Of a DNA stretch of 35,224 nt, positions 2,114 to 24,718 are shown one piece after another. The position numbers were made by a program, and so were the translations under genes. Location of the stretch: contig CAMOKN010000256.1 of NCBI GenBank assembly GCA_946617595.1, positions 1 through 35,224 of the forward strand, given 5' to 3'. The notes under the pieces are model-generated. The model made no database searches. It had not been told where the DNA came from and was given only the letters and a program-made list of their open reading frames with translations. Within the stretch, counting starts at the first letter, position 1. Each line of letters starts with the position of its first letter. The stretch comes from an uncultured Clostridia bacterium. GTDB lineage: Bacteria > Bacillota > Clostridia > Oscillospirales > Ruminococcaceae.

Positions 2114-3892
2114 TTACTTTCCGAAATACTTTATCGCAAGCATAGTCAGATCATCGAACTGAGGTGCGTTGCCTACAAACCAGTCCACACTTGTTCTGAC
2201 AGATTTCAGAAGCTCTTCAAGCGAAACATCGCCGGCAGCATTCAGAGCATCTATCATTCTTTCTTCGCCGTACAGTACAAACTCTGTGTTTGTAGCCTCC
2301 GGAATGCCGTCGGTGTAGACGAACAAAGTATCACCGTTCTCAAACTGTATTTCATAATCTGTGTACGAAACCCCGGGTATCATCCCGACAAACAATCCGT
2401 GTTTATTATCGTCAAGCAGCTCAAATTTTCCGCCTGCCCGCTTTATTGCCGGATACTCGTGACCCGCGTTGCAGCAGGTCATTTTTCCTGTGTTGATATT
2501 GAGTATCCCGAGCCATACTGTCACGAACATATCATTCGTGTCATCACGGCAGATACGGTTGTTGACAGCTTTGATGATCTTTGCCGGAGAACCTCCAAAA
2601 ATCGAATAGTTATTTATAAGGTTCTTAGCGTACATCATAAACAGCGCTGCCGGCACGCCCTTGCCCGAAACATCGGCTATTACAAGCCCAAGCGTCTCCT
2701 TGTCGATCATAAAGAAGTCATAGAAATCTCCACCGACTTCTTTGGCAGGGGTCATAGATGCATATATCTCAAATTCTTTATACTCCGGGAATTCTCTCGG
2801 CAGCTGACTCATCTGGATCTTTGCGGCAGTCTCCAGTTCGGTTGCGGTACGCTCTCTTTCTGCGGCAAGCTTTGAGTTCTCTTCGTTGTACCGCTCCATT
2901 TCTTCAGCCATATATTCTATATCCCGCGCCAAAATACTGAACTCGTTGCCGGTCATAATCCCGGACATTTCGTTTACTATGTGTCCGGTATCCTTTGTGC
3001 TGGTATATTCACGGACATTCTTCTGTATCAGAGATAGAGGACGGGTAACTTTTCTGCGCAGAAACAATATCAGGTTTATATCAGTTAAAATAATAAGCAC
3101 GGCGCTTACCACCAGCATCGGAAGCATAAGACCGTTCAGAGTACGAAAAAGAGCGCTGTTATTATGGAATGCGCAAAGAATATAATCTCTTTTTCCGGTC
3201 GATGTCAGGAGCTTATATCCCGCATAGTACGAATTCAATTGACTGCTGTTATCTTCATCTTCGGGAGAGTAAAAGTACAATATCTCAAATCTTGTTTCAC
3301 TGATTTTTTTATGGCATATTTTCTCAACCTCTCTCGAATGGGTCATATCTATTTCGGGTTCAGAACCAAAAAACTTCATCACTTCATCTTCAGAAACATC
3401 ACCGGTCGTTCTACTTCCCTCCATAACTACGTTCGAATTGCCGTTATCGTCTACTGCAAGGACATATACATCTTCGTAATCATAGACATTCATACGGCTG
3501 TTCAGCACACTGAGCAAGACAGTATAACACATAACGGAGTTGAATTCCTTTTCAGTGTCGGTGAGCGCATTAAAAACCTCATCATTATCTTTGAACGCCA
3601 ATTCTTTGATATTCTGATATTTCGTATTCTGAACTTCCATAATTTCAGAATATATCTCGTCTATATTTATATTGCCGACACGATCCAACAAATAATCGAA
3701 TGCGGCACCTTTGAATTTTATTGTATCAAAATTGTGATAGATCACCCCAACGTCTCTGTCCACTGTCTCATTTTTTGCGGCAAAGTATGTCGATGCTGTG
3801 TTTGCGAATACCACAAACATAAATATCACAAGTACAAGCACAAGCATCACCGAGATGACTACGGCAACCTGTACCAACAGTTTTTTCTTCAT
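2114..3892 (-). CDS. Membrane SpoIIE-family PP2C phosphatase, copy 1
   Basis: This 592-residue protein has an N-terminal membrane helix (about residues 7-29), an extracytoplasmic sensor region of roughly 220 residues, a second helix (about 258-282), a HAMP-like linker (RKVTRPLSLIQ), a short coiled coil and a C-terminal PP2C domain. The PP2C motifs are complete: EVGGDFYDFF, DVSGKGVPAALFMM, CNAGHE, YTDGIPEATN and QFDDLTML with the metal-binding aspartates. In the family such proteins remove phosphate from a serine of STAS antagonists and so trip a partner switch. Two STAS genes lie at the head of the same strand run. It is a paralogue of the phosphatase at 5466-7217: the catalytic halves are very alike, the sensor halves differ. 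It is not sporulation SpoIIE, which has about ten N-terminal helices. Confidence 0.9.
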   Translation of the reverse strand: MKKKLLVQVAVVISVMLVLVLVIFMFVVFANTASTYFAAKNETVDRDVGVIYHNFDTIKFKGAAFDYLLDRVGNINIDEIYSEIMEVQNTKYQNIKELAFKDNDEVFNALTDTEKEFNSVMCYTVLLSVLNSRMNVYDYEDVYVLAVDDNGNSNVVMEGSRTTGDVSEDEVMKFFGSEPEIDMTHSREVEKICHKKISETRFEILYFYSPEDEDNSSQLNSYYAGYKLLTSTGKRDYILCAFHNNSALFRTLNGLMLPMLVVSAVLIILTDINLILFLRRKVTRPLSLIQKNVREYTSTKDTGHIVNEMSGIMTGNEFSILARDIEYMAEEMERYNEENSKLAAERERTATELETAAKIQMSQLPREFPEYKEFEIYASMTPAKEVGGDFYDFFMIDKETLGLVIADVSGKGVPAALFMMYAKNLINNYSIFGGSPAKIIKAVNNRICRDDTNDMFVTVWLGILNINTGKMTCCNAGHEYPAIKRAGGKFELLDDNKHGLFVGMIPGVSYTDYEIQFENGDTLFVYTDGIPEATNTEFVLYGEERMIDALNAAGDVSLEELLKSVRTSVDWFVGNAPQFDDLTMLAIKYFGK

Positions 3893-3923
3893 ATTCAGAG
3901 TTCCTGTTCAAGTTCATAAACTG

Positions 3924-3964
3924 CAATATCGCACAAAGAGTTTCCGGCTCTCTGTGCGATATTG
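3924..3964 (-). terminator. Strong hairpin between pyrophosphorylase and phosphatase
   Basis: CAATATCGCACA (3924-3935) pairs perfectly with TGTGCGATATTG (3953-3964), extended after one mismatch by AGAG/CTCT, leaving a 7-base loop. It lies between the stop of the pyrophosphorylase gene and the start of the phosphatase gene. No long U-run follows on the minus strand, so it may be a processing or partial-termination site rather than a full terminator. Confidence 0.5.
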
Positions 3965-3970
3965 ATAATA

Positions 3971-5194
3971 TCACAATTCCACACCGTTCTTTTTCAACAG
4001 TTCCCTTGCACTTTCAACGGAATCTATACCTGTAGGATTCTTGATAGGCGCAAATTCCTTCTCTCTTACTACCTCATATGGCAGGCAAGTAGATAGCTGG
4101 TGGATCATATCGAGAACAAGCTGCTCGAATTTGTAGCCATTGGGTTCTGTTGGTTTGACAAGAGCGCCGTTTTCATCAATGTACGGTATTTTCTTCTTTA
4201 CAACATGAAGCGGCATCTTATCATCTGCCACCGCCGAAAGCTCCCTCACACGGAACAGATAATTGAGTATGACACCATAGTTGTACGCAGGGTCACCGTT
4301 CGCATCCTTCGCGTTCATCATCTCTTCGGAAAGCTCGTAGTATTCTACAATAGACGGTCTGCCGTCCTCAAGACACATTACTCCGACCTTCTCATCGGGT
4401 GCCGCCTTGCGAACCACCTTCGCTCCGACAGATACGTCCGCAAGTATCGTCGCTCCTACGAAACACGGGTCACATATACGCTGAAGAACGTTATCCACGG
4501 CGAATATGTCTATCCACTCTATGCCTTCATTGGTGAGTATCTTATCAAGTCCCGCGCGGCACATTGATGAATACCAGCCCGCATTACCATTCGGGGAGGT
4601 GGAAATGCGGTCTTTTGACTCCATATACAGCTTGCCGCTGTAATCGCAGGCAGGAGCCATATCCTGCTTAAAGAATACTATCCTGTCCTCTTTATATCCG
4701 AAGAAGTTCTTTTCTTTAAGGAATTTTACGGTTGCATCATGGTTTTTCTCGCTGGTCATAATGAATAACCTGATCCATGTGTCCGTCTCTTTTACTACGT
4801 CAAGCAGATTGCTGATAATTCGTTCAAAAATGTACACAGGCTTTGTAAGCCCAATGTCGAACATACCTTTCGGATTATCGGATCCGAGACGTGTTCCCAT
4901 ACCTCCGGCAAGCAGAAGTGCTGCCGTTTTGCCTTCTTTTATCGCCTTTACTCCTGCATCGTGAAGTTCCTGCTCACGCGCTTCAATCTCGCTTCTCTGC
5001 ATTGCCGCAAGGGGGGAGAACACACCGCGATTATCGCTTGCGCCACTGCCTATCCTGCTGAGGACTGCAAAATCTGTCTCCTCGACCTGGTGTATCAGCG
5101 CTGCTTTCTGCGTGTCAGAAAGCTCGTCATAATACTTGAAAACGTGCTCCTGCCCAATAGCGGACATTTTTGCCCTTGCTTCTTCGTAAGTCAT
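3971..5194 (-). CDS. UDP-N-acetylhexosamine/UDP-sugar pyrophosphorylase (UDPGP family)
   Basis: This 407-residue enzyme joins UTP to a sugar 1-phosphate, giving a UDP-sugar and pyrophosphate. LLLAGGMGTRLGSDNPKGMF near residue 95 is the nucleotide-binding signature of the UDPGP (AGX1/Qri1-like) family, distinct from bacterial GalU or GlmU. VDNVLQRICDPCFVGA and VVRKAAPDEKVGVM fit the uridine- and sugar-binding parts, and NGYKFEQLVLDM is the usual late motif. Its ATG overlaps the stop of the debranching-enzyme remnant upstream (TTATGA), so translation may be coupled. The sugar is not known; N-acetylglucosamine, N-acetylgalactosamine or glucose are likely. Its place in the run suggests it feeds the glycosyltransferases. 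Confidence 0.88.
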   Translation of the reverse strand: MTYEEARAKMSAIGQEHVFKYYDELSDTQKAALIHQVEETDFAVLSRIGSGASDNRGVFSPLAAMQRSEIEAREQELHDAGVKAIKEGKTAALLLAGGMGTRLGSDNPKGMFDIGLTKPVYIFERIISNLLDVVKETDTWIRLFIMTSEKNHDATVKFLKEKNFFGYKEDRIVFFKQDMAPACDYSGKLYMESKDRISTSPNGNAGWYSSMCRAGLDKILTNEGIEWIDIFAVDNVLQRICDPCFVGATILADVSVGAKVVRKAAPDEKVGVMCLEDGRPSIVEYYELSEEMMNAKDANGDPAYNYGVILNYLFRVRELSAVADDKMPLHVVKKKIPYIDENGALVKPTEPNGYKFEQLVLDMIHQLSTCLPYEVVREKEFAPIKNPTGIDSVESARELLKKNGVEL

Positions 5195-5425
5195 AATAAT
5201 ACCCCCACTTTGTTTTCTTTTCCGGTTTTCTGTTCACCGACAAGTATTGCGGTAGAACGAGCACCGATTGTTATCCCGGTCTGTTCTTCCAGCCTCTTCT
5301 CGCTTTCCGGCTCTGCCGAAAAGCCGTAAGCCTCAAACGCGAGTTTCCATTCAAATCCATCGGGAATTAGCGGCAGCTTCATACCTTTTGTTATTCCCAT
5401 ATTCTTCATCTGACGGTGTCTGCTC
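5191..5425 (-). pseudogene. Duplicated, internally deleted tail of the debranching enzyme
   Basis: About 180 bases here nearly repeat the 3' end of the debranching-enzyme gene at 7563-7745: both encode IPDGFEWKLAFEAYGFSAEP and GITIGARSTAILVG. Directly upstream, 25 bases at 5398-5422 match 8136-8160 inside the same gene with one difference (encoding RQMKNM). The copy therefore has an internal deletion of about 390 bp. An open frame of up to 72 codons spans the scar and its stop overlaps the pyrophosphorylase ATG. It lacks the whole catalytic barrel. It is the footprint of a tandem duplication and may survive as a translational lead-in for the next gene. Confidence 0.85.
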
Positions 5426-5465
5426 CCTTTATTATATCAAGTTCTTCTATTCTCTTATCATTCCC

Positions 5466-7217
5466 TTATTTTCCGAAATACTTTATCGCAAGCATTGTCA
5501 GATCGTCAAACTGCGGAGCCGCTCCGACAAATTCGTTTACCCTGCTCTTTACTGTTTGCAGCAGTTCGCTCAGGATCCCGTCGGGAGCAGAGTTCAGCGC
5601 CTCTACCATTCTTTCGGCTCCGAACAATTTCAGTTCCGAATTTGTCGCCTCGGGTACGCCGTCCGTGTAAACAAAGACTATATCGTCTTTTTCAAGCTGA
5701 ATCTCATATTCCTTATATTTTATACGGGGCATTACACCGACAAACAATCCATGCTTATCTTTCAGTATCTCAAATTTTCCGTCTGCTCTCTTAATCACGG
5801 GATCTTCATGACCCGCATTGCAGCAGGTGAGTTTCCCTGTACTTAATTCGAGTATTCCGAGCCATACCGTAACGAACATATTATCCATATTGTTCTCGCA
5901 AATACGATTATTTACTGCTTCGAGTATCTCCGCCGGAGTTCCATTATATAGTGAATAATTATTGATCAGCATTCTTGATGACATCATAAACAGCGCTGCC
6001 GGAACACCCTTTCCGGAAACATCGGCAATAACGAGAGTAATATGATCATCGTCTATAAAAAAATAATCATAAAAATCTCCGCCGACCTCTTTTGCGGGAT
6101 CCATTGACGCATAGATATCAAACTCCGTTCTGTCGGGGAAAGGCGGGAATACTCTCGGAAGCTGACTTGCCTGTATACTCGCCGCCACGCTGAGTTCCGC
6201 GCTTATACGTTCTTTTTCGGCAGTGACCGTTCTTACCTCCTTTACGTACCTGTCAATTTCCTCAACCATATCGGAAATATCCGATGCCAACAGAATGATC
6301 TCATTTGGAGCAGATGTGATCCTGCCTATTTCTTTCTTCAGAATACCGCTGTCCTTGCTTTCTTTATAGCTGCTGACACTGTTCTGCATATCTGACAGAG
6401 GTTTTATCGCCACAAAATACAGCATAACAAGCAGAATGATGTTGCCAATAAACAGAAAAACGAAATTTAAAAAAACAATAATTCCTGCTTTAGAATTGAT
6501 CTCATCCTTCACCGTACTCCACAGCTGTGTTTCGCATATCAGTCCTCTGATCTCTCCGTCTGCAATGACCGGAGTGTATACAAAAATATATTCAAGTCCG
6601 TCAGTAGTTGATGTTGCGTGCTCTAATTCCAAAACATCCTCTCCCGTACTGTATATTTTTGATGCGACAGGGTGAAGATCTGCGTGATATACCCATTTCT
6701 TTCCAAGTCCATATTTTGTTGATGGACTGTTTTCATCACGTCCTTCAAAGAATAAAAACGCTTCCTCACTCTCGCGATATAAAGTACAGGATATGCCGAC
6801 CGGATGATATTCATTTTTTAATCTGTCAAAAAAAGCGGCGTTCAGTATGTAGCACATCTCAGCAAATTTTTTTTGTTCGTTTTCAGGTAAAAGCTGAACT
6901 TCTTCCGAGCCCATACTCTTTACAGCAAGGCTGTAGTATTCCTTGTGGTCAGAGATCCATTGTTCATTTTTTAAAGCATCCATAGGAACGTCCATTTCAT
7001 CATAGTGGTTCTCCCAATATATAAACAGCCATGAAAAAGCTTTATAACTCATAAGCTCGTTTCCGGCGTAATCGGTCATTTTCTTTGTCTGCTCATAGAT
7101 CTCTTTCATCTGAAAATCCGTGTTATTCTTAATGATCTGGACGGCATTCAATACAGATGACAAGACAAACATAATAAATGTCAGCATTCCAACTATGGTC
7201 AAAAGACTTTTCTTCAT
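5466..7217 (-). CDS. Membrane SpoIIE-family PP2C phosphatase, copy 2
   Basis: This 583-residue paralogue of the phosphatase at 2114-3892 has the same plan: N-terminal helix (about 5-25), extracytoplasmic sensor of roughly 215 residues, second helix (about 242-265, IVFLNFVFLFIGNIILLVML), HAMP-like linker, coiled coil and PP2C domain with EVGGDFYDYF, DVSGKGVPAALFMM, CNAGHE, YTDGVPEATN and QFDDLTML. The last residues (LTMLAIKYFGK) are identical in the two. The start is ATG 7217, seven bases after AGGTGA, rather than the GTG just before it. The sensor halves have clearly diverged, which suggests two different signals feeding the same switch. Substrates are inferred to be the STAS proteins at 23958-24718. 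Confidence 0.9.
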   Translation of the reverse strand: MKKSLLTIVGMLTFIMFVLSSVLNAVQIIKNNTDFQMKEIYEQTKKMTDYAGNELMSYKAFSWLFIYWENHYDEMDVPMDALKNEQWISDHKEYYSLAVKSMGSEEVQLLPENEQKKFAEMCYILNAAFFDRLKNEYHPVGISCTLYRESEEAFLFFEGRDENSPSTKYGLGKKWVYHADLHPVASKIYSTGEDVLELEHATSTTDGLEYIFVYTPVIADGEIRGLICETQLWSTVKDEINSKAGIIVFLNFVFLFIGNIILLVMLYFVAIKPLSDMQNSVSSYKESKDSGILKKEIGRITSAPNEIILLASDISDMVEEIDRYVKEVRTVTAEKERISAELSVAASIQASQLPRVFPPFPDRTEFDIYASMDPAKEVGGDFYDYFFIDDDHITLVIADVSGKGVPAALFMMSSRMLINNYSLYNGTPAEILEAVNNRICENNMDNMFVTVWLGILELSTGKLTCCNAGHEDPVIKRADGKFEILKDKHGLFVGVMPRIKYKEYEIQLEKDDIVFVYTDGVPEATNSELKLFGAERMVEALNSAPDGILSELLQTVKSRVNEFVGAAPQFDDLTMLAIKYFGK

Positions 7218-7272
7218 CACAACTTCACCTATATAAAAACGCTGTTTTTAAACCTGATCCGTTTTTTCTTTA

Positions 7273-7429: not shown

Positions 7430-7562
7430 TTTAGACACTCTTCCTGACACCATCATCTTCTTCCGTTCCATAATTCTCATACATAACATCGTCAAGTCAC
7501 CAAAATATGTTTCTGTCCGGTCTCAGACGTTTTGGTTCTTGATTCTTCGCAAGTCACTATTA

Positions 7563-9668
7563 TTATCTTTTTCCGTTTTTCTGTACACCGACAAGTATTG
7601 CTGTAGAACGAGCACCAATTGTTATCCCGGTCTGATCTTCCAGCCTCTTCGCGCTTTCCGGCTCTGCCGAAAAGCCATAAGCCTCAAACGCGAGTTTCCA
7701 TTCAAATCCATCGGGAATTACCGGCAGCTCATACCTGTGTTCTTCCCAATGTGCGTTGACTGCGATATAAATAAAGCAGTCCTTTTTAACACCGTATTTC
7801 ATACTGTCCTCCGCATACATATATGCAAGACACAGTCCCGAAGCCTGTTCATCTATATTCCATGCTTTTGTACCGTGGAACGAAAGCTCAGGGTATCCGG
7901 TACCGTTATTACTGTGGTCAAAAGAATTTGCCGAAAGTACCGGGTGTGATTTTCTGAACGCTATAAGTTTCCTTATATAATTATACAACTCTTTGTTTTT
8001 GTCAAGCATCGACCAGTCAAGCCATGATATCTCGTTATCCTGACAATAGGCGTTGTTATTGCCCCATTGAGTGTTTGCAAACTCATCGCCGGACAGCAGC
8101 ATCGGTATCCCCCTGCTTGTGAGCAATATCGTAAGCATATTCTTCATCTGACGGTATCTGAGCGCGTTTATCTCCGCGCTGTCGGTCTCGCCCTCACATC
8201 CGCAGTTCCAGCTGTCATTGTCATTGCAGCCGTCACGATTGTCTTCGCCGTTGGCTTCATTGTGCTTTTCATTGTAGGCGGTGAGGTCATAGAGCGTAAA
8301 TCCGTCGTGACAGGTCACAAAGTTTATCGAAGCTGCCGCACTTCTGCCGCCGTACATATCATTCGAGCCTCTTATTCGCCAATACAGCTCCGGTGCACAC
8401 TCCGCGCCGCCCTTGATGAATTTCCTCAGACAATCGCGGTATTTTCCGTTCCATTCAGACCAGCGTCCGAATGCCGGGAACGAACCTACCTGATAAAGTC
8501 CGCCTGCGTCCCAGGCTTCAGCAATAAGTATGCTTTTTCCAAGCACCGCGTCGTTTGCTATACTGTCCAACAGCGGCGGATCTATCATCGGTGCGCCGTT
8601 CTCATCGCGGGACAGTATGGACGCAAGATCAAATCTGAATCCGTCAACATGATATGCCGACACCCAATAGCGCAGACAGTCAAGCACCACATTTCTTACC
8701 ACGGGATTGTTACAGTTCATCGTGTTCCCGCAGCCGCTGAAATTATAGTAATAACCGTCCGGCGTGAGCAGATAGTAAGTTCGGTTGTCGATTCCTCGGT
8801 AGGATATGGACGGTCCGTTCTCGTTGCCCTCGGCAGTATGATTGAAGACAACGTCGAGTATTACCTCGATCCCCTCCCGATGCAGCTTTCGTATCATGCT
8901 TTTAAGCTCGTCAGCTTCCATTCCGAAAGAAGCTGTGGCCGCATATCCCGCTTTCGGAGCAAAGAAATCGACGGTCGAATATCCCCAATAGTTGTATAGC
9001 TTTCTGTCGTTCACCTCGCGTGAGTTTTCAAATTCATCAAACTCAAATATCGGCATAAGCTCGATGCAATTCACCCCAAGCTCTTTCAGATACGGTATTT
9101 TTTCGGTAATGCCAGCATATGTCCCACGGAACCTTACGCCGCTGCTTTCATGTTCGGTGAACGAACGGACATGCATTTCGTATATAATAAGCTCGTTCTG
9201 CGGAATTTCAAGGGGCTTGTCGCCCTCCCAATTGAAATCATCACGCACGAACTGCCCCCGGTGCTGAAACTGCTTCGACCAATCGGGTTCCCTGCCCCAT
9301 ACGGTCCTGCCCGATACGGATTTTGCGTAGGGGTCGAGCAATACATTGTTCTTGTCAAAGCGCAATCCCTTTTCCGGAGCGAACTCACCGTCAAAACGAT
9401 AACCGTATTCGGTCAATTCAAGCTGAATGCCGAAAACCATCATCGTATAGACATTCCCTATGCGAAACTCCTCCGGAAAAGGTATTTCGATAAAAGGTTC
9501 GTCCTGTCCGTGATGATACAGGACGAGGGTACAGCTTTTGGCTTCCTTTGAGAAAACACTGAAATTAACTCCGCCGTCCGTGACCGTTGCGCCGAACGGG
9601 AATACTCGTCCGATGCAGTATTCAAGGTCACCTATTTTATTTGTGGGGAATGTATCTATAAGTTTCAT
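7563..9668 (-). CDS. glgX: Glycogen-debranching enzyme / isoamylase-type glycosidase
   Basis: This GH13 enzyme hydrolyses alpha-1,6 branches of glycogen-like glucans. An N-terminal CBM48 (about residues 1-130) precedes the TIM barrel with the conserved regions DVVFNHTAEG, DGFRFDLASIL (catalytic Asp), LIAEAWDAGG (catalytic Glu) and NFVTCHDGFTL (transition-state Asp), and YWGYSTVDFFAPKAGY. At 701 residues it has the usual GlgX/TreX length. The start is ATG 9668: AAAGGAG lies six bases upstream, whereas the longer frame from 9698 has no such site. It follows the membrane acyltransferase after a 26-base gap. A damaged second copy of its tail lies at 5191-5425. In this context it could release glucan for sugar-nucleotide synthesis or simply act in glycogen metabolism. 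Confidence 0.92.
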   Translation of the reverse strand: MKLIDTFPTNKIGDLEYCIGRVFPFGATVTDGGVNFSVFSKEAKSCTLVLYHHGQDEPFIEIPFPEEFRIGNVYTMMVFGIQLELTEYGYRFDGEFAPEKGLRFDKNNVLLDPYAKSVSGRTVWGREPDWSKQFQHRGQFVRDDFNWEGDKPLEIPQNELIIYEMHVRSFTEHESSGVRFRGTYAGITEKIPYLKELGVNCIELMPIFEFDEFENSREVNDRKLYNYWGYSTVDFFAPKAGYAATASFGMEADELKSMIRKLHREGIEVILDVVFNHTAEGNENGPSISYRGIDNRTYYLLTPDGYYYNFSGCGNTMNCNNPVVRNVVLDCLRYWVSAYHVDGFRFDLASILSRDENGAPMIDPPLLDSIANDAVLGKSILIAEAWDAGGLYQVGSFPAFGRWSEWNGKYRDCLRKFIKGGAECAPELYWRIRGSNDMYGGRSAAASINFVTCHDGFTLYDLTAYNEKHNEANGEDNRDGCNDNDSWNCGCEGETDSAEINALRYRQMKNMLTILLTSRGIPMLLSGDEFANTQWGNNNAYCQDNEISWLDWSMLDKNKELYNYIRKLIAFRKSHPVLSANSFDHSNNGTGYPELSFHGTKAWNIDEQASGLCLAYMYAEDSMKYGVKKDCFIYIAVNAHWEEHRYELPVIPDGFEWKLAFEAYGFSAEPESAKRLEDQTGITIGARSTAILVGVQKNGKR

Positions 9669-9694
9669 GTACCACTCCTTTCCCGGTTTATTCC

Positions 9695-10777: not shown

Positions 10778-10796
10778 ATAAAACCTCCTTATGGGC

Positions 10797-11672: not shown

Positions 11673-11697
11673 ATACGATTCTCCATTTTGTTACATT

Positions 11698-16588: not shown

Positions 16589-17712
16589 TTCTTCTCCTCC
16601 GTCTGATTTTCCGCCATACCCTTTATCAGCTCTTTTCCGTATTTTTCCCTTATCTTGATGAGGTAGTTTATATCGGACGCTTTCTTTACATAATCGGGTA
16701 TAGGAGGATAATTCTTGTGAAGCTCCATAAAAGTAAAATACACAAAATCGGAGTTATCACCGTACTTCTCATCAAAGATTTTCTTTACTGTACCGTCTTT
16801 TCGTATCTCTTCCTCACCAAGCTCCTGATAAGCGGGACGTATATATACTCTTTCCAGATTTTCAATAATGAAATCAACCGCTTCCCTTTTATGTACGGGG
16901 TCATCCTCAAAGAACGGGATTCCTTTCATATTATTCTTCATGACATCCGGAGCCGCAAGTACTGAGTTAAGGGATCTTTCAAGAAGCTTTATATAGTCCT
17001 TTCCTCTGCACAGAGAGGTTTCCGACATACGATAAAGGTAGAAATTACCGGGAATCGTAACATACTTCTTGGCATTGAACAGGCACGAAAAGCAGAATGC
17101 AAGATCCTCCGCAAGCTTCATCTCGCCGAAATGTATATCATACTTAAGAAGAAACTCCCTTTTGTACAGCTTGTTCCATACCGCCCAGTGATACATCTGT
17201 TTCTTCCACATTTCAAATCTTTCAGCCATATCGTCGGGAGCTATCCTGACATCGGTCGCGGTCTCGACCCGGTCTGTATTGACATTCAGCCAGTCCTTTT
17301 TCGGTACCGTCAGAAGATTTGCCGGTGCATCGACCATGAGCGGGAATATGCAGCCTGTATTATGGAGTACATCCGCGTCATATTTCTTTGCGTCATTGTA
17401 CATCTTCTCGAACGCATCCGGAACCACTCCGTCATCACTGTCAACAAAGGCTATATATTCTCCCTTTGCCGCTTTTATACCGGTATTGCGCGCAGCACCG
17501 GGTCCCATATTTTTAGGCTGATCTATGAGCTGCACCCTCTCGTTGCCGGCATAATGCTCACGGCACAGTTCCATACTGTCATCCGGAGTGCAGTCGTTGA
17601 CTATTATTATTTCTGTTTCGGAGAGTGTCTGTTTAAGCAGACAGTCAACATTTTCGATTATGTAGTCTCTTGCCTTATACATAGGTATGACCACTGATAC
17701 TTTATAATTCAT
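16585..17712 (-). CDS. Family 2 glycosyltransferase
   Basis: This GT-A glycosyltransferase of 375 residues begins MNYKVSVVIPMYKARDYIIE and has the nucleotide-sugar motifs IIIVNDCTPDD, GPGAARNTGIKAAKGEYIAF and VDSDDG (metal-binding DxD). The C-terminal part is longer than the catalytic core and probably binds the acceptor. The start is ATG 17712, preceded by AGGAGG six bases upstream and overlapping the esterase stop; a longer frame to 17772 has no such support and runs into the esterase gene. It would transfer a sugar from a UDP- or other NDP-sugar in the cytoplasm. Similar N-terminal sequence occurs in the GT2-GH3 fusion at 21250-23868. Confidence 0.9.
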   Translation of the reverse strand: MNYKVSVVIPMYKARDYIIENVDCLLKQTLSETEIIIVNDCTPDDSMELCREHYAGNERVQLIDQPKNMGPGAARNTGIKAAKGEYIAFVDSDDGVVPDAFEKMYNDAKKYDADVLHNTGCIFPLMVDAPANLLTVPKKDWLNVNTDRVETATDVRIAPDDMAERFEMWKKQMYHWAVWNKLYKREFLLKYDIHFGEMKLAEDLAFCFSCLFNAKKYVTIPGNFYLYRMSETSLCRGKDYIKLLERSLNSVLAAPDVMKNNMKGIPFFEDDPVHKREAVDFIIENLERVYIRPAYQELGEEEIRKDGTVKKIFDEKYGDNSDFVYFTFMELHKNYPPIPDYVKKASDINYLIKIREKYGKELIKGMAENQTEEKK

Positions 17713-19223
17713 TTTACACCTCCTAATATGAGTTCTTTCATATTTAGTCTGTTTTTTATTGCCTTTTTCCAAAATGACAGCTTCTTTTCGTCCATCGTTC
17801 TGTTTTCATACCCATTTATGCCGACAGTACAGCAGCCCGTACCGTTATAGGGTTTCCAACCGCCCGCTTCATCCGTTCTTCCCGATGAGGCAAAGCTTAC
17901 AAGCGCACCGCAGAGCTTATCACCGAGAGCTCTGTCGGCATCTGTCCAGTCATTCATTCTTTCATCACTGAATATGTTCCAAAAATACGGCATATCAGAG
18001 GAGTGAAAGGCACCGAACATCTCGCTGCCTTTTCCCGGCATAATATGTATAAATTCGTAGATATATGTATTTCCGGCATTTCTTTCATTGCGTATATCAC
18101 CGAACATATATAAGGAGGCAAGAAAAGCATCATGTCCCATTTGCGTGAATGTTACATCCGGGAACTGCTTATTGAGTTCATACATTGAAAGCAGATCATC
18201 CGCAAGATCACCGAAAAAGTCATTTATTATCGCTAAAGCCTTCTGCTCGTCGATCTGTGCTCCGAATGGAGTGAGTTTATACGCTACTCCATCGCCTGCG
18301 ACCATTCCGGCTATATAATCAAGACCGTCGGTGCCTCCGTTGTTGACAGCATCGATAAATGGTTCGGGAAGTACATATCCGTCCACACACATATTTACGG
18401 GAAATACCTTTTTCAGCATATCCTCAGCCGGTATTCTGCGCATTTCTTCGAGGCTCATTCCGGCGAAAAGCTCATCACCTTTTTTTGAAAGCTCCTTCAA
18501 AGTCGCCCAAGGACGTATTAACCCGATATGACCGTAATCGAGATAGCTTATAGCGAAAGCACGTTTAAACAATCCCTTTGCCAGCGGACTTACCGCAAGA
18601 GCGTTTACATTACATCCGCCGGCGGACAGTCCGGTGATCGTAACATTATCCCGGTCACCGCCGAACTTCGCTATATTATCGCGCACCCATTCAAGCGCTG
18701 CTATCTGATCCAGCAGCATATAGTTTCCGGACACGCCATGTTCATTCTCTTCAGAAAGAGCTGTACACGCAAGCAGCCCGAGTATTCCCACACGGAAACC
18801 CACACTGACATAAACGGCACCTTTGGCTGCAATACTCCGACCATCATATATCTCGCAGGACGGACCGCCGCTTACGAGGTTACCGCCGTGGAAAAATACT
18901 ATGACCGGCTTTTTTCCGCACATATCTTCGGGTGCCCAAACATTAAGGTAAAGGCAATCCTCCGAATAGCCGGTATCTTCGATAATAAATTCCTTTGTCC
19001 AGGCATAGAACGGCTTTTGCTCCATTTGTATCGGACTTTTCTCCCATTTTATGCATTCTTTCACACCATACCAGCTTACCGGAGGCTGAGGCTCTTTCCA
19101 TCTGAGTTCGCCCACCGGCGGAGCCGCATAAGGGATTCCCTTGTATATGTTTATTCCGTTCTCATTGTAGCCGCATATTTTTCCCCCTGCGACATTGACA
19201 GTTTCGGTTTGCCTAATATCCAT
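17709..19223 (-). CDS. Type-B carboxylesterase
   Basis: This 504-residue alpha/beta hydrolase of the carboxylesterase/para-nitrobenzyl-esterase family has YKGIPYAAPPVGELRW near the N-terminus, SEDCLYLNVWAP, oxyanion-hole VFFHGGNLVSGG and nucleophile elbow TITGLSAGGCNV. The late histidine lies in GAFHSSDMPYFWN. No signal peptide is visible, so it acts in the cytoplasm. Family members cleave esters of bulky alcohols; some act in natural-product pathways. It follows the ligase gene by 26 bases and overlaps the GT2 gene by 4 bp, so it is firmly part of the operon. It might trim or release an acyl intermediate, or use transesterification; neither is shown by the sequence. Confidence 0.92.
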   Translation of the reverse strand: MDIRQTETVNVAGGKICGYNENGINIYKGIPYAAPPVGELRWKEPQPPVSWYGVKECIKWEKSPIQMEQKPFYAWTKEFIIEDTGYSEDCLYLNVWAPEDMCGKKPVIVFFHGGNLVSGGPSCEIYDGRSIAAKGAVYVSVGFRVGILGLLACTALSEENEHGVSGNYMLLDQIAALEWVRDNIAKFGGDRDNVTITGLSAGGCNVNALAVSPLAKGLFKRAFAISYLDYGHIGLIRPWATLKELSKKGDELFAGMSLEEMRRIPAEDMLKKVFPVNMCVDGYVLPEPFIDAVNNGGTDGLDYIAGMVAGDGVAYKLTPFGAQIDEQKALAIINDFFGDLADDLLSMYELNKQFPDVTFTQMGHDAFLASLYMFGDIRNERNAGNTYIYEFIHIMPGKGSEMFGAFHSSDMPYFWNIFSDERMNDWTDADRALGDKLCGALVSFASSGRTDEAGGWKPYNGTGCCTVGINGYENRTMDEKKLSFWKKAIKNRLNMKELILGGVK

Positions 19224-19249: not shown

Positions 19250-21238
19250 TCAGTTTAAAGGCTCATGCTGCAAAAGGAAATCCTTAATATCGAAATCCTT
19301 GTCGTATGTAAAATCTACAGATACGAAATGCCTTACACCGTCAAGCTGCTTGTATTCCCAGTCGTCCACAAGTTTCAGGATTATAGTTGACGCGATCTTG
19401 TAATTCTTCTTGCGTTCATCGGTCTCCTTAACCTCTGTGATGGTGAAAGAAATACGAAGTGTGTTCTGCATACACTGAAGCATGACTTCGATATCTCCTA
19501 CATCATCCGATGTCTCATTTACACAGGCAATCAGCATCTCCTCAACAGCCTGACGTATTTTAAGCGCTTTTTGTCTGCTGAACCCGAGGTTAAGCGCGAA
19601 TTCCTCGAACATAGCCGCAACCGGAGAAATACTGTAAGTGCTGTTCTTGACGGATGTAGAGATGATCCGGATACCATTTTCAAGCTTTCCTTCAAGTATA
19701 AGCCTGTGCAGTCTGCGAAGCATCTCAATATGCAGATTACGCTGGTCTATCTTTCCGTTTGCGTTGAGCGGGAATTTGTCGAATACGAAATAATATACGG
19801 GCGATTTATATGTGCCGACTTTTTCTTTCATGTATTTTTTGAGAGCTTCCTCATCGAAAGTCTCGCCGGGCGCAAGAACGATGCATGCGCCAAGGTTTTC
19901 ACCGTAAATACGGTCTTTGTAACCGAATATGCGGCAGCATGCAACAGAAGGATGCGACATTACCTGCGCTTCTATCTCTGCGGGAGCGAGGTTCTCACCG
20001 CCCTTGATGATAAGATCTTTGATCCTGCCGACAATACGGAGATTGCCGCGCTCGTCAAGAACGCCGAGGTCACCGGAATGGAGCCAGCCATCCGCGTCAA
20101 TAGCCTGCTTCTCGGGCGGAAGCTTGTAGTATCCGTTTTTCAGGTGATAGCCACGGGTAACGATCTCACCGATCTCACCTGCGGGAAGAATGCCTTTCTC
20201 CTCATCCCATATCGCAAGCTCAACGCCGTCTACCGCCCTGCCGACTGTGTTGTACCGTACAGATACATCATCATCTGGTCTTGTAAGTGTATAAGTAGCC
20301 GATGTCTCTGTCATACCGTAGAGGTTGATGAAAGTTGTGTTATAAAGCGCAGTCTCAAAGCGCATGAACTGTACAGGAGAAGTATAGCTTCCCGCTATGG
20401 AGCAAATATGCACTCTGGGCGCAACCATAGCTGTAAACTCCTCGCTGTCGATGATACCCTGATATATCGTAGCCACCGACCAGAGATCGGATGCATCCTC
20501 TTTCTCAACCAGCTTTGCGATGACATTCGCTTTTATTGCTTCGGGAATTATAAGAGTAGAGCCTGTGGAAAGATATATCCATGTTACGAAAATAGCGTAT
20601 GCATGGAAAAGCGGGACTCCAAGCACAGCCTTGTCTCCGCGGATAGAGTTTATTTCTTTTGTAAGCTGTCTGACTACATTGGTTATGGCATACTGTGATG
20701 TAAGCACAGCCTTTGGGAACGCGGTGGTACCTGAGGTATAAATGATATAAGCATCGTCCCGGACTGTCCAGCCTGTTGTATCGGGCTTGTTAGCGGGAAT
20801 ATCATCAAAGCTCTCGTCCACAATGCTGATGCAGTTGCTTTCTTCAAGCCCAAAAGCCACAGCGAGCAGCTTTGCGTCGTCAGCTCCACCCGCTATATCG
20901 TGTGTTTTGCCGTACATCATATACTTTGTATCAGCAAATTCTACCAACGGCTTTGCGTCTTTAATAGTAAGGTTCGCATTCAGGATAAGCGCGATACCGC
21001 CCGAACGGATAATACCATAGTAGGTATAGAGCCACGCAGGGGACGCAGTGGACCAAAGCGCGACCTTATCCCCCTTTTTCAGCCCCTTATTCAGCAAAGC
21101 GGCAGCAACATTGTCGATCTTAGCAACGAGCTGACTGTATGTAAGTCTGGTGTCGCCCATGATTATTGCTTCGCGGTCGGGAGTTTTCTCTGCCTGCTCA
21201 GACAGTATATCATAATAGTATTTCTCAATTGTCTGCAT
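19250..21238 (-). CDS. Acyl-adenylating enzyme fused to an RsbW-like switch domain
   Basis: Residues 1 to about 510 form a complete AMP-binding enzyme: YIIYTSGTTAFPKAVLTSQY (phosphate loop), NLYGMTETSATY, GWLHSGDLGVLDERGNLRIV, GRIKDLIIKGGENLAPAEIE and FPLNANGKIDQ with the C-terminal lysine. It would activate a carboxylic acid with ATP. After a linker, residues about 525-662 are unlike any ligase: AAMFEEFALNLGFSRQKALK followed by IRQAVEEMLIACVNE closely matches the N-box helix of RsbW/SpoIIAB-type GHKL ATPases (HATPase_c_2). The N-box Asn position reads Ala and no clear DxGxG box follows, so kinase activity is doubtful; binding of STAS partners may remain. No carrier domain is present. AAGGAG precedes the ATG. 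It lies 12 bases after the GT2-GH3 gene. Confidence 0.85.
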   Translation of the reverse strand: MQTIEKYYYDILSEQAEKTPDREAIIMGDTRLTYSQLVAKIDNVAAALLNKGLKKGDKVALWSTASPAWLYTYYGIIRSGGIALILNANLTIKDAKPLVEFADTKYMMYGKTHDIAGGADDAKLLAVAFGLEESNCISIVDESFDDIPANKPDTTGWTVRDDAYIIYTSGTTAFPKAVLTSQYAITNVVRQLTKEINSIRGDKAVLGVPLFHAYAIFVTWIYLSTGSTLIIPEAIKANVIAKLVEKEDASDLWSVATIYQGIIDSEEFTAMVAPRVHICSIAGSYTSPVQFMRFETALYNTTFINLYGMTETSATYTLTRPDDDVSVRYNTVGRAVDGVELAIWDEEKGILPAGEIGEIVTRGYHLKNGYYKLPPEKQAIDADGWLHSGDLGVLDERGNLRIVGRIKDLIIKGGENLAPAEIEAQVMSHPSVACCRIFGYKDRIYGENLGACIVLAPGETFDEEALKKYMKEKVGTYKSPVYYFVFDKFPLNANGKIDQRNLHIEMLRRLHRLILEGKLENGIRIISTSVKNSTYSISPVAAMFEEFALNLGFSRQKALKIRQAVEEMLIACVNETSDDVGDIEVMLQCMQNTLRISFTITEVKETDERKKNYKIASTIILKLVDDWEYKQLDGVRHFVSVDFTYDKDFDIKDFLLQHEPLN

Positions 21239-21249
21239 AATTGTTCTCC

Positions 21250-23868
21250 TTATCTTATGATCCTGGATCTGAAAAATCTTTCACTGACCGGATCGTTTAT
21301 GAATCTTGTCGGTTTTATAAAGTCATGCGGGAACTTTAGTCTGTACATAAGTACGTCTCTGTAAAAGAGCTGAGATTCCGGTTCTACGAAAACCACCTGA
21401 GCCTTTTGCAGTTTTCCGCTCGCCGCAGCGTCACGATACAGTACAACACGCTCTTCAAGTCTTTTATCTACTGTTTCGGACAGCTTACCGACATCATATC
21501 CCGATACATCATCGACTGTCGTTTCGATCAGCAGTACAATGCCGTCCCCCTTCTCATTTTCCATATAAGCATAGTCTGCCACAGACACGCCTGCCTCTTT
21601 TCCGAGTGCTGTCACGCTTTCGAGTATATCACTCTCTGTAATGCTCACTCCGCAGATCGTAATTGTCTGATCGGAATTATACTCGTATGAGAATATCGGA
21701 ACATTGTTCTTTATCTCCGCCACACAGATAACATCACTCAGTCTGTAGCGGTAAAGACCGGAATATGTTGATATGAGCGGATAATAAAGTTTTCCGGGCT
21801 CTGCATTCGGGGCAAGCACCGCATCACCGTCACTGTCTGCCGGAACAAGCTCTATGAAAGCATTCTCCGTACCGAGTTCGTACATTCCCTTTTTTTCTGT
21901 CTCTTTGCCAAGAAGTGCGGAAAATTCAATAAAGGATCCGTTGCAATGCTTTATATTGCCAAGATAGCGTGAAATATTTTCGGTATATATCGAAAAGCTT
22001 CCTCCGCCGAACGCGGTGACATTGGAGAGCTTTCTCCAAATCTTCGGCACAACGGGAGTATCAAAGCCCTGCTTGAATATTCCCATAAGCTCATTCGCTC
22101 TGCCCGGGTCGGAAATAAGCCGATCCTCTACCGCCGCTCTCAGTTCATCGGAAATAGCCTGATTGAAATGATCCGGTTTCCCGCTTTCTATGTCTGCACA
22201 CAAATTTCTCCAATTGTTTTCGAGAAATCTGAATGTGTTCCAAACTTCCCATGTATTCGGTGCGAAAATTCTGTCAAGGAAACGCTCGGACAGCGCAAAC
22301 AGAAGTCTTATATATGTAAAATCAACGACCTCCGTAGGAAACATCACCTCATACGGAGAAGTGAAAAGGTTCCTCTTGGCATATGCCGACAGCTCATTAC
22401 TCTCAAATACTCCCGAAAGTATGGCACCATATGGGGTGTTGACAAAGGAATTATCATTGAATCTGTGTTTTTGCGGAAAGCTTTCGAGCATGATGAACGT
22501 TTTTTTGCCTGTCGCTTCTTCGATCATCATTCTTTCAAGCGGCTCAAGCTGTTTATCTGTACATGGAACAAGCTTCGGATTAGACATACGTCCGAGGAAG
22601 AACATATAATTCTTTATCGGGTCGGCAGTAATTATACCTGATTCGCCGATATTGGTCTGTAGCCTCAGCAGAGGTTCATACATATCGTAATACGATTCGG
22701 GTACTCTTTTCTGATATCCGGAAAGAGTAAGCAGTTCGTCAAACCCGTATCTTCTGCCGATATCGGTGTCATGGTTGCGGTAAAGTATATCACGAAGCAC
22801 AAGCTGATACGGTGAGAGGTTCTGTGATGTTTTGACATCAACAGCGATAAGAGTATCACCGCCACCGTTCCCGCTGTAATTTTCGGGATCAAGTATCACA
22901 GCTCTCGGGAAGTCGTATCTTTCCCTGACCGCCTTCTCGGGATAAAGCTTCGACACTCTGAGAGGCTTGATATTTTCAAGATAAGGTGCGAGTATATCTC
23001 TGATCTCGCGTCTGTCGTCAAGAGTCAGATCGTCAGAAGCTATCATAAAGCGCGCAAGAACGCAGCAAAGGCTTGATATTATAGCATTCATAGAGAAGCC
23101 GTATGAAAGCCCGGCATCAAACACCTTCTTATATCCCTTCGCATACTCGATCAGCGTTTCCGCGCTTTTGCTGCTGTTCTGAACGAGTGAGGAATTGTTG
23201 ATATAATAGTGGTAGCCGATCATCTGAGGAAGATAGCATATCCTGTCTGCGTGACCGTAACATACGAGATTGAACAGATAATCCTCGGCAAACGGAACAC
23301 TGTCATCAAACCAGATATTGTTGCTCTCAATGAAGCACCGATCATATATACGCGATGTGACCATACCGCATACGCCGCTGAACATCTTCTCATCATCCCA
23401 GTTATCCTTGGTGATGATTATCTCTTCCTGCGTCTGATCCCACAGAACAACCTCAGTGATCGGCTTATTTTTGTCACTTTCAAGCTCGTATTCACGTCTG
23501 AACCATGTTATCTGCGTGTTGTTCTTTTCGGTGTACGAAAGAACCTTCTGTAAGCAATGCGGGGTATAGCTGTCATCAGCATCGAGAAATCCGATATATG
23601 GGGCAGTCGCATGTTCTATGCCGCAGTTTCGGGGAGAGGACGGAGTTTTCTTATCGTCATTCAGAACAATTATCTTAACATTCTCATACCCGCCGAGCAT
23701 CTCATTCACATTGTCAAGATACTGCTTATCGGAATTATGTACTACTACTATCCACTCGACGTTTTCAAATCCAATAGTCTGAGCGAACATAGATTCACAG
23801 CATTTTTTGAAATAACCGGGTGCGACATTATGGAACGGAGTTACAACAGATATTGCATAATTTTTCAT
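21250..23868 (-). CDS. Glycosyltransferase 2 - GH3-like fusion protein
   Basis: This 872-residue two-part protein starts with a GT2 domain (residues 1 to about 250): YAISVVTPFHNVAPGYFKKC, SSPRNCGIEHATAPYIGFLD and DADDS. From about residue 345 it resembles plant and bacterial GH3 acyl-acid amido synthetases: NHDTDIGRRYGFDELLTLSG, KRVPESYYDMYEPLLRL, NPKLVPCTDKQ and, near the C-terminus, LISTYSGLYRYRLSDVICV, the most typical GH3 block. GH3 enzymes adenylate a carboxylate and join it to an amine. Here the usual SSGTTGxPK phosphate loop reads FFLGRMSNPK, so ATP use is uncertain. GGAGG stands nine bases before the ATG. It follows STAS 1 by 90 bases. A single protein that adds sugar and acyl or amide groups is the likely meaning. 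Confidence 0.85.
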   Translation of the reverse strand: MKNYAISVVTPFHNVAPGYFKKCCESMFAQTIGFENVEWIVVVHNSDKQYLDNVNEMLGGYENVKIIVLNDDKKTPSSPRNCGIEHATAPYIGFLDADDSYTPHCLQKVLSYTEKNNTQITWFRREYELESDKNKPITEVVLWDQTQEEIIITKDNWDDEKMFSGVCGMVTSRIYDRCFIESNNIWFDDSVPFAEDYLFNLVCYGHADRICYLPQMIGYHYYINNSSLVQNSSKSAETLIEYAKGYKKVFDAGLSYGFSMNAIISSLCCVLARFMIASDDLTLDDRREIRDILAPYLENIKPLRVSKLYPEKAVRERYDFPRAVILDPENYSGNGGGDTLIAVDVKTSQNLSPYQLVLRDILYRNHDTDIGRRYGFDELLTLSGYQKRVPESYYDMYEPLLRLQTNIGESGIITADPIKNYMFFLGRMSNPKLVPCTDKQLEPLERMMIEEATGKKTFIMLESFPQKHRFNDNSFVNTPYGAILSGVFESNELSAYAKRNLFTSPYEVMFPTEVVDFTYIRLLFALSERFLDRIFAPNTWEVWNTFRFLENNWRNLCADIESGKPDHFNQAISDELRAAVEDRLISDPGRANELMGIFKQGFDTPVVPKIWRKLSNVTAFGGGSFSIYTENISRYLGNIKHCNGSFIEFSALLGKETEKKGMYELGTENAFIELVPADSDGDAVLAPNAEPGKLYYPLISTYSGLYRYRLSDVICVAEIKNNVPIFSYEYNSDQTITICGVSITESDILESVTALGKEAGVSVADYAYMENEKGDGIVLLIETTVDDVSGYDVGKLSETVDKRLEERVVLYRDAAASGKLQKAQVVFVEPESQLFYRDVLMYRLKFPHDFIKPTRFINDPVSERFFRSRIIR

Positions 23869-23957: not shown

Positions 23958-24269
23958 TCATTTTTCGATTTCAAGGAAATCGGTCAGTCCTGTTGCTTTA
24001 AAAATATCAAGAATATCATCGGACAATCCGCATACAGTAAGCTTTCCTTTTTTTGCGATCATCGTCTTCTGCAGAGAGACAAGAACTCTTAAACCGGCGG
24101 AAGAAATGTATTCGACCTGCTTGAAATCAAGAACAAGATCGTCTATTCCGTCAAGCGACAATGACACCTCATTGTCGAGCTGAGGAGCAGTCGATGTATC
24201 CACACGACCGCTGATCTTTGCGGTAAGTTTGTTTTCTTCCTGTGTTTTGGTAATTGTCAGCAAACTCAT
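23958..24269 (-). CDS. STAS-domain anti-sigma-factor antagonist, copy 1
   Basis: This 103-residue single-domain STAS protein (SpoIIAA/RsbV family) starts MSLLTITKTQEENKLTAKIS, then GRVDTSTAPQLDNEV, LVLDFKQVEYISSAGLRVLV and a final helix IFKATGLTDFLEI. The ISSAG serines include the site that a switch kinase phosphorylates and a PP2C enzyme dephosphorylates. ATG 24269 is the start, with AAAAGGAG eight bases upstream; the longer frame to 24302 has no ribosome site. It is about 65% alike by eye to the neighbouring STAS protein. Dephosphorylated protein would bind an RsbW-type domain; the only one in the window is the C-terminus of the ligase two genes downstream. Confidence 0.93.
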   Translation of the reverse strand: MSLLTITKTQEENKLTAKISGRVDTSTAPQLDNEVSLSLDGIDDLVLDFKQVEYISSAGLRVLVSLQKTMIAKKGKLTVCGLSDDILDIFKATGLTDFLEIEK

Positions 24270-24302
24270 AGTTATAAGCTCCTTTTGATTGTATATTCTC
24301 AC

Positions 24303-24406
24303 GCGCCCTGATAGGTGCGTCTTTACCGATAAATAAATAATAAGAGCAATCCCTCGGTCTCTTATCCTTTGTAATAATAAAATTGCGCCGTATTTTCTAT
24401 AACGCT
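24303..24406 (-). promoter_or_regulatory. Hairpins between the two STAS genes
   Basis: The gap between the STAS genes holds two stem-loops on the minus strand: ATAAGAG with CTCTTAT (about 24341-24366, 12-base loop), followed by an A/U-rich tract without a clean U-run, and ACGC-CC with GG-GCGT (about 24301-24322). They could trim or partly end the transcript and so set the ratio of STAS 2 to the downstream genes. No promoter was recognised here. Confidence 0.3.
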
Positions 24407-24718
24407 TTACTGCCTGATATCAAGAAGTTCAGTAAGACCTGTGGCAGTAAATATATCAAGGATCCCCTCCGACGGTGAACATACGGTAAACGATCCTTTT
24501 TTTGCGGTCATTGTCTTATGAAGCCAAACAAGAACCCTCAGCCCTGCCGATGACATATAATCAAGATGCTTTAAGTCAAGCACAAGATCATTTACGTCAT
24601 CAACCTCGGAGGACATTTCGTTTTCAAACTGAGGCGCGGTCGTTACATCTACGCGCCCGACAAGCTCCGCTGTAAGCTTTGTTCCGACCTTTGTTTTATT
24701 TACAGTTAACATACTCAT
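24407..24718 (-). CDS. STAS-domain anti-sigma-factor antagonist, copy 2
   Basis: This second 103-residue STAS protein begins MSMLTVNKTKVGTKLTAELV, then GRVDVTTAPQFENEM, LVLDLKHLDYMSSAGLRVLV and IFTATGLTELLDI. As in copy 1, the MSSAG loop offers the phosphorylatable serine. The start has AAAAGGAG nine bases upstream. It is the first gene behind the promoter at 24981-25009, separated from it by a leader of about 260 nt. Two tandem STAS proteins with two phosphatases suggest a duplicated switch, each pair possibly answering its own signal. The sequence does not show which phosphatase serves which STAS. Confidence 0.93.
   Translation of the reverse strand: MSMLTVNKTKVGTKLTAELVGRVDVTTAPQFENEMSSEVDDVNDLVLDLKHLDYMSSAGLRVLVWLHKTMTAKKGSFTVCSPSEGILDIFTATGLTELLDIRQ

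Follow-up and report, generated by a model that had tools for sequence, protein, structure and literature searches.

Introduction

Partner switching is best known for releasing sigma factors, and a few cases are known in which it acts on enzymes of cyclic diguanylate (c-di-GMP) instead. Here we describe a run of genes from an uncultured Clostridia bacterium of the Ruminococcaceae (GenBank assembly GCA_946617595.1, contig CAMOKN010000256.1), in which two STAS proteins and two membrane SpoIIE/PP2C phosphatases are encoded together with an AMP-forming acyl ligase whose C-terminal tail has a predicted, degenerate RsbW fold. We read this run, with a probability of roughly 0.6, as an operon for biosynthesis and export in which a partner switch acts post-translationally on the acyl-activating ligase. 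The window is the whole stretch of 35,224 nucleotides that was analysed; labels beginning with G, C and L denote genomes (G000 being the window's own), contigs (C256 being the window's) and the loci that were read.

The RsbU-RsbV-RsbW and SpoIIE-SpoIIAA-SpoIIAB systems resemble the window in combining a STAS protein with a conserved serine, a PP2C phosphatase and an RsbW-fold domain. Unlike them, the window has its RsbW fold in a degenerate form, fused to an acyl ligase, and has no sigma factor among the open reading frames (ORFs) scanned, as the initial annotation had also claimed, although the rest of the genome was not searched for sigma factors. A switch protein that acts on an enzyme is known from SiaABCD of Pseudomonas aeruginosa, in which SiaC, a DUF1987 protein, is set by a kinase and a phosphatase and, when unphosphorylated, binds and activates the diguanylate cyclase SiaD via a helical stalk; the sections of that paper available to us describe no pseudokinase port or fused switch domain (PMC8457831). 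HsbA-HsbD and BgrV-BgrR are alike in that a STAS protein controls an enzyme, HsbA binding HsbD when phosphorylated, and unlike in that the target, a diguanylate cyclase, serves c-di-GMP synthesis (PMC8457831, PMC6482189, both in part). SypE-SypA and BtrUVW have outputs other than a known sigma factor, namely biofilm and secretion, with no acyl ligase or tailed transporter described in the available portions of the sources (PMC8256260; for SypE also PMC12826045). STAS domains occur inside SLC26/SulP transporters according to the same partial source (PMC8256260), so that a switch-type domain lies within a transporter there as here, but theirs is a STAS domain whereas ours is a degenerate RsbW fold near STAS genes. 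Lastly, TciR, a REC-RsbW protein affecting indigoidine, may have a target other than a sigma factor (PMC12826045, in part). Enzyme-acting partner switches are thus already known; pseudokinase ports on ligases and exporters, that is degenerate RsbW domains on an acyl ligase or transporter, were not found described in the available portions of open-licence PMC papers, and nor were STAS-ligase fusions.

Partner-switch genes of the window

In the direction of transcription, all on the minus strand in the Pfam scan of the window's ORFs, the run reads COND1, STAS1, STAS2, GT2-GH3, ligase with tail, esterase, GT2, COND2, two ABC genes, APH, Acyl_transf_3, GlgX (which ends at 7563), SpoIIE B, UDPGP and SpoIIE A, where COND denotes an orphan family. 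The intergenic gaps from STAS1 to GlgX range from -64 to 104 bp, and those before SpoIIE B, UDPGP and SpoIIE A are 342, 271 and 78 bp, respectively. Pfam and NCBIfam agree with the gene content originally annotated (two STAS, two membrane SpoIIE, GT2-GH3, ligase, glycosyltransferases and ABC exporter, on one strand). The genes on which the argument turns are given below, with lengths in amino acids (aa).

24407..24718, minus strand: STAS1, single-domain anti-sigma-antagonist-like protein, 103 aa, motif YMSSAGLR (PF01740, 3.1e-16)
23958..24302, minus strand: STAS2, 114 aa, motif YISSAGLR (PF01740, 3.4e-16)
21250..23868, minus strand: GT2 glycosyltransferase fused to a GH3-family acyl-adenylating enzyme, 872 aa (PF00535, 1.8e-20; PF03321, 2.3e-43; PF23571, 2.3e-11)
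19250..21238, minus strand: AMP-forming acyl ligase (residues ~1-505) with a predicted C-terminal degenerate RsbW-fold domain (~513-635) (PF00501, 1.3e-67; PF13193, 1.1e-12; tail by hhalign, AlphaFold2, Foldseek and motif loss)
5466..7220, minus strand: membrane SpoIIE/PP2C phosphatase B (PF07228, 7e-50)
2114..3892, minus strand: membrane SpoIIE/PP2C phosphatase A (PF07228, 1.1e-46)

Both phosphatases have two hydrophobic regions and the motifs GGDFY, DVSGKG, TDG and FDD, and have thus kept the metal-binding and catalytic motifs. The serine at the phospho-acceptor position of the STAS motif, which we take to be the phosphosite, is kept in 64 of 65 STAS domains across the loci, some of them near-duplicates. 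The annotation had counted all three parts of a partner switch in the window; this needs correcting, as a complete kinase is missing and the ligase tail is without ATP boxes. Elsewhere in the genome (3.0 Mb in 331 contigs, 87.7% complete) there are four matches to PF13581 (HATPase_c_2), three of them over the cut-off, and kinase-type RsbW genes lie with STAS genes on C280 and C179 and in a STAS-RsbW-SpoIIE set on C192. The genome also holds 13 SpoIIE matches, of which two are in the window, and the proximity of SpoIIE alone is for this reason weak evidence.

The C-terminal domain of the ligase

AMP-binding and AMP-binding_C domains were both found in the ligase by Pfam, placing it among the ANL acyl ligases, while every NCBIfam name among the best 25 of its 107 matches was below cut-off. 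Residues 506-662 matched PF13581 weakly (E=0.013), as did those of the orthologue in G011, a genome of the same genus (E=0.0011), both below the cut-off. In profile comparisons by hhalign the two ligase tails scored 76.0% against free RsbW (E 2.3e-5) and 88.3% against similar tails found on MATE transporters (E 2.8e-6), which in turn scored 97.3% against free RsbW (E 2.5e-11); three control comparisons gave at most 0.2%. An AlphaFold2 model built on 32 aligned tails and kinases had a predicted local distance difference test (pLDDT) score of 82.7, and because the kinase rows could bias it, a second was made from the ligase tails alone (three rows, two nearly identical; pLDDT 73.3, predicted template modelling score 0.70). 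With either model, the 19 best PDB matches in Foldseek were chains of anti-sigma-factor entries (SpoIIAB, RsbW, UsfX and SigF-anti-sigma complexes), the matches being named by entry and not by chain; the 20th match of the ligase-tail-only model was SiaB-SiaC, a further likeness to the SiaABCD system. Against PDB sequences the ligase tail had no matches and the MATE tails had five, none of them relevant. The ligase tail accordingly has an RsbW/SpoIIAB fold that is weak by sequence and clear by predicted structure.

In RsbW-type kinases the ATP-binding boxes are marked by the Asn of the N box, the Asp of G1 and the glycines of G2. All 43 kinase-type domains kept the Asn, the Asp and all three glycines; the full set was kept in none of 48 tails (36 MATE, seven ABC, three ligase and two other). 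In the three ligase tails the N-box Asn is replaced by M, M and A, and G2 glycines are absent, with Asp at G1 in two of the three. Among the MATE tails the first G2 glycine is kept in 0 of 36, and the Asn and Asp are both kept in 13. The glutamate preceding the N-box Asn is kept in all 48 tails. The ligases of the window and G011 share 84.6% identity in the core and 58.0% in the tail, the tail showing proportions of nonsynonymous and synonymous differences of 0.263 and 0.746, with synonymous sites near saturation; it is constrained, yet evolving faster than the core.

The ligase tail as the missing kinase was considered and rejected, as its degenerate ATP boxes make it unlikely to supply that activity. 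With the fold retained and the boxes lost, it is better seen as a pseudokinase domain, and probably a docking domain. The RsbW-like domain of the initial annotation is therefore upheld as a predicted fold, not as a working RsbW.

Similar tails on MATE and ABC transporters

Architectures were assigned with home-made domain models (E<=1e-3, ORFs of at least 80 aa), and the loci counted, having been picked via searches with the tail, GH3 or ligase, do not form a random sample. The loci read contained 36 MATE proteins with a tail, ten STAS-APH-RsbW, nine PP2C-RsbW, seven STAS-APH, seven ABC proteins with a tail, three ligases with a tail (two nearly identical), three STAS-ligase fusions and two tails on otherwise unassigned ORFs. 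The MATE-tail model matched 35 of 197 genomes of the order, a count that mixes true kinases and tails, and six of 209 genomes of the phylum at E<=1e-7, the window's own among them; tailed MATE genes accompanied by PP2C were seen both outside the class (G1115, G1232, G1128) and inside it (G753). HATPase_c_2 was matched at E<=0.1 by eight of 11 MATE tails (best 2.6e-5). Pfam, run on ten proteins, named neither the MATE tail of L173 nor the ABC tail of L245.

A switch gene was present within 8 kb of 28 of the 36 tailed MATE genes, five of the seven tailed ABC genes, all three tailed ligases (two nearly identical) and both of the others. As a control, the MATE genes of six genomes were compared (14 long and 29 short, after merging genes with two MatE hits): SpoIIE lay within 8 kb of six of nine tailed genes and three of 34 untailed ones (Fisher p=0.0009), with the qualification that most tailed loci were known beforehand and that the statistic ignores shared ancestry. 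One of the untailed genes near SpoIIE is a long MATE (G306). Four of the genomes had given 4/4 versus 1/16 (p=0.001), a comparison included in the six-genome count and whose four tailed loci were already known to be near PP2C.

If the tails have kept the fold and not the ATP boxes, they might recruit a kinase and not STAS: the degenerate fold would pair with an active RsbW in a mixed dimer, and the kinase, anchored in this way at the ligase or transporter, would phosphorylate STAS locally. RsbW/SpoIIAB-type proteins dimerise, and free or fused RsbW is present in many tail loci. However, the window, L188, L192 and L261 show STAS and PP2C and no RsbW in the stretch read, and the STAS-ligase fusions described below favour STAS itself as the messenger; we regard this main rival to a STAS-docking tail as unlikely.

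Two tailed transporters are of note in themselves. At 5280-8720, L245 encodes an ABC importer of 1146 aa that combines solute-binding, membrane and ATPase parts in a single chain; its degenerate tail is weak, and STAS and PP2C-RsbW genes lie next to it. In L270 (G011, C10), at 5770-15394, a weak-tailed MATE gene overlaps that of a 2626-aa protein, which is NRPS-like (nonribosomal peptide synthetase-like) in that AMP-ligase domains are repeated, and no switch gene was seen in the 16 kb read.

Related clusters and STAS fusions

The cluster most like that of the window is in G011, the only other genome in which STAS, PP2C, ligase and enzymes were seen together as a full set. It holds two SpoIIE genes and a STAS-ligase fusion with a complete free RsbW gene immediately before it; these are accompanied by two COND, two ABC and GlgX, and further by a STAS-APH fusion, STAS, a ligase with tail, and STAS; identity with the window is 48% for the two ABC proteins, 53% for GlgX and 78% for the ligase with tail. 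STAS-ligase fusions were found in three genomes, G011, G079 and G711 (Pfam-confirmed in the first two), following GlgX in G711 and, in G079, following pieces of GlgX and preceding two COND genes. Searching the family with the STAS-ligase fusion, where no more than three candidates were scored in any genome, matched 47 of 396 genomes at E<=1e-90, of which only G079 and G711 (2/396) were matched via the STAS part. The ligase search gave 26 of 396 genomes of the family at 1e-64 and 49 of 391 of the class, mainly ordinary ligases, and among the loci opened a STAS part was again seen only in G079 and G711; one scan of the genome contigs gave three loci. Pfam confirmed STAS-ligase, STAS-APH, STAS-APH-RsbW and ligase-APH fusions among the ten proteins checked.

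In G347, STAS, GT2-GH3 and ligase genes lie together, the contig ending at ligase residue 489. Over those 489 residues the window ligase (19250-21238) is 95% identical to that of G347 (L053), whereas the adjoining GT2-GH3 proteins share only 49-50%, a disparity which suggests that the ligase has been exchanged between clusters.

The GT2-GH3 search of the genus matched 15 of 71 genomes with 22 matches: four GT2-GH3 (of which one is truncated where its contig stops), one GT2 alone and 17 stand-alone GH3. Thirteen of these 17 lie directly against a SpoIIE (PP2C) gene, 11 of the 13 with a tailed MATE gene directly upstream. As for the other four, L045 is on a 3-kb contig, L198 has SpoIIE about 1.5 kb away on the opposite strand, and L197 and L199 have none in 16-20 kb.

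It could be argued that a genome rich in SpoIIE would place phosphatases beside an unrelated metabolite operon by chance, and the 13 SpoIIE matches and the gaps around the SpoIIE genes of the window would fit this. Such an explanation is nevertheless highly improbable, given the similar set in G011, the joint occurrence of STAS, GT2-GH3 and ligase in G347, the PP2C genes directly joined to 13 of the 17 stand-alone GH3 genes in the genus and the outcome of the MATE control; for STAS and ligase, chance neighbourhood is largely refuted.

An ordinary transcriptional switch must also be weighed, in which STAS and SpoIIE feed an RsbW and a sigma factor elsewhere that turn the operon on, the ligase tail being a relic. 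This is the known role of STAS/SpoIIE-type proteins, and RsbW genes are at hand with STAS on C280 and C179 and with STAS and SpoIIE on C192. Set against this, the ligase tail is constrained, and domains like it are found again on ligases and on MATE and ABC proteins, in most cases close to switch genes; for the fusions of STAS with ligase, with APH and with APH-RsbW, no part in sigma control suggests itself; and the scanned ORFs of the window, as said, contain no sigma factor. We consider such a transcriptional switch improbable.

Among these fusions, the triple one of STAS, an APH-like kinase and a catalytically complete RsbW was read in ten loci (L234, L235, L236, L239, L240, L241, L242, L250, L272 and L276), eight of which have STAS and PP2C genes both nearby, and several of which are near a tailed MATE gene. 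The window's own genome has, in L232 (C183, 1396-5513), an AMP-ligase-APH kinase fusion of 783 aa that overlaps a MATE gene with a degenerate RsbW tail.

Proposed mechanism

For post-translational control of the ligase we infer the following course, including its direction, signals and product. A kinase encoded elsewhere in the genome, for which C280, C179 and C192 offer candidates, would keep STAS1 and STAS2 phosphorylated. The two membrane SpoIIE phosphatases, judging from their domains, would sense extracellular signals and dephosphorylate both proteins; unphosphorylated STAS would then dock on the C-terminal domain of the ligase, where the RsbW fold would be a docking port rather than a kinase, and the docking would either alter the activity of the ligase or bring it to the exporter and the acyltransferase. 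The product may be an acylated glyco-metabolite and the outside signals two in number, as first proposed. Relatives with STAS fused onto the ligase or an APH kinase may achieve the same coupling, and the degenerate domains carried by MATE and ABC transporters, usually with STAS, SpoIIE or RsbW genes close by, may be another route to it. Action on the ligase in the manner of SiaC on SiaD (PMC8457831, in part) is indirectly supported by the STAS-ligase fusions.

In broader terms, there is perhaps an even chance that partner switching has a branch that bypasses transcription, so far represented by these loci in scattered members of a single phylum, presumably Bacillota. In it, inactivated anti-sigma domains would be docking ports plugged into acyl-adenylating enzymes as well as MATE and ABC transporters, with STAS also fused onto ligases and APH-like kinases, and membrane phosphatases would gate the synthesis and export of a small molecule or lipid directly, from protein to protein. 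If the tails are docking ports, metabolite enzymes and exporters have come under a general control line made of partner-switch parts, a switch's target can be read from the genome via its tail, and the contact between switch and target is a defined domain of ~130 residues.

Several findings count against control of the ligase by a docking STAS. A complete kinase is absent from the window, with no PF13581 match at E<=0.001 in C256, and the 13 SpoIIE proteins of the genome could act on these or on other STAS proteins. The SpoIIE genes may not be co-transcribed with the run, being parted from it by 342 bp and from each other by UDPGP. Ligases with a tail are rare, being confined to the window's own genome, G011 and one near-identical relative, and the 95% identical ligase of G347 stops before any tail. 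The search of the order with the tail alone matched six of 295 genomes, only the window's own convincingly; the link emerged once the MATE tails had been identified. No switch gene was found within 8 kb, in the stretch read, for eight of 36 tailed MATE genes (for L171, L270 and L278 this stretch extends 5 kb or more to either side; the rest are on short contigs or close to its limit) and two of seven tailed ABC genes; in G1142 two tailed ABC genes, around which 16 and 10 kb were read, are without switch genes. Three of the nine tailed MATE genes of the control lie away from SpoIIE, and the tailed MATE loci are related by descent as well as having been found via tail, GH3 or ligase searches. 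Given the 13 MATE tails with both Asn and Asp, nucleotide binding by some of them is possible. GT2-GH3 can also occur with an ABC gene and no switch genes, as in L201 (14 kb read) and in L109, the latter on a contig of only 5 kb.

The annotation had named beforehand a lack of linkage in other genomes as what would speak against it, and had proposed a check for conserved co-occurrence. STAS and ligase proved to be linked elsewhere, PP2C joining them as a full set only in G011; co-occurrence was seen in the G011 and G347 sets and the GH3-SpoIIE pairs, and not around the GT2-GH3 genes of L201 and L109. Its suggestion that the switch acts on enzymes has gained from the STAS-ligase fusions in three other genomes, the RsbW gene upstream of one of them, the GH3-SpoIIE operons and the transporter tails, and has been weakened in that the tail is not a working RsbW, the window has no kinase and GT2-GH3 is not always linked to switch genes.

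Other genes and features of the window

The remaining genes of the run are as follows.

25155..26471, minus strand: COND1, the other orphan protein with H...D, lying 436 bp upstream of STAS1 (no Pfam match; aligned with COND2)
17709..19223, minus strand: carboxylesterase-family protein (PF00135, 6.8e-74)
16585..17772, minus strand: GT2 glycosyltransferase, start uncertain (PF00535, 3.3e-32)
15281..16588, minus strand: COND2, member of an orphan family in which one H and one D are invariant, resembling condensation proteins in motif only (no Pfam match; alignment)
13434..15197, minus strand: ABC half-transporter 1 (PF00005, PF00664)
11698..13437, minus strand: ABC half-transporter 2 (PF00005, PF00664)
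10797..11672, minus strand: APH-like small-molecule kinase, whose G011 relative has an N-terminal STAS domain (PF01636, 3.5e-18)
9695..10777, minus strand: membrane acyltransferase, Acyl_transf_3 (PF01757, 6.7e-27)
7563..9698, minus strand: GlgX glycogen debranching enzyme (TIGR02100, 694 bits against an NCBIfam cut-off of 640.9)
3971..5194, minus strand: UDPGP-family uridylyltransferase, possibly a neighbour outside the pathway (PF01704, 8.6e-35)

The Acyl_transf_3 protein is the only one of its kind found in the window, whereas the annotation spoke of membrane acyltransferases in the plural. The COND proteins had been taken for condensation-fold acyltransferases, a view that no family model supports: none of the 11 members scanned had a relevant Pfam match, the single match to PDB profiles was not relevant, and COND1 matched PapA5 below the cut-off (E=0.009). 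COND1 and COND2 are 23% identical, and in the alignment, inspected for a motif of the HHxxxDG type, one H (109) and one D (113) are invariant in all 11 rows, the preceding H not being so. In GT2-GH3 the N and middle domains of GH3 are over the cut-off and the C domain is below it (19.5 against 23.6 bits). OlsH, the lyso-ornithine lipid synthetase, is a bacterial GH3-like enzyme of lipid acylation (PMC12493201, in part) and like GT2-GH3 belongs to the bacterial GH3 family; an OlsH-type ornithine lipid pathway was rejected, the GT2-GH3 protein scoring 19.6 bits against an NCBIfam cut-off of 620.

Scans of the window for promoters and terminators were near shuffle level and were not used (53 against a mean of 39.2, standard deviation 6.1; 20 against 16.1, standard deviation 5.0), and no tRNA or Rfam match was found in it. 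Adjoining SpoIIE A is a transposase fragment (DUF772) at 1033-1608. Upstream of the run, the gene-poor stretch at 26910-27621 holds a split repeat (48, 25 and 23 nt, 85-91% alike, spaced by ~536-619 bases) and, at 27243-27305, a 26-nt inverted repeat. Beyond it lie a streptomycin-adenylyltransferase-family protein (PF04439) at 27959-28843 and, at 29822-30928, a single ORF in which the last part of a PfkB sugar kinase is attached to a TetR DNA-binding head, and which may be a fusion, a deletion or an assembly fault.

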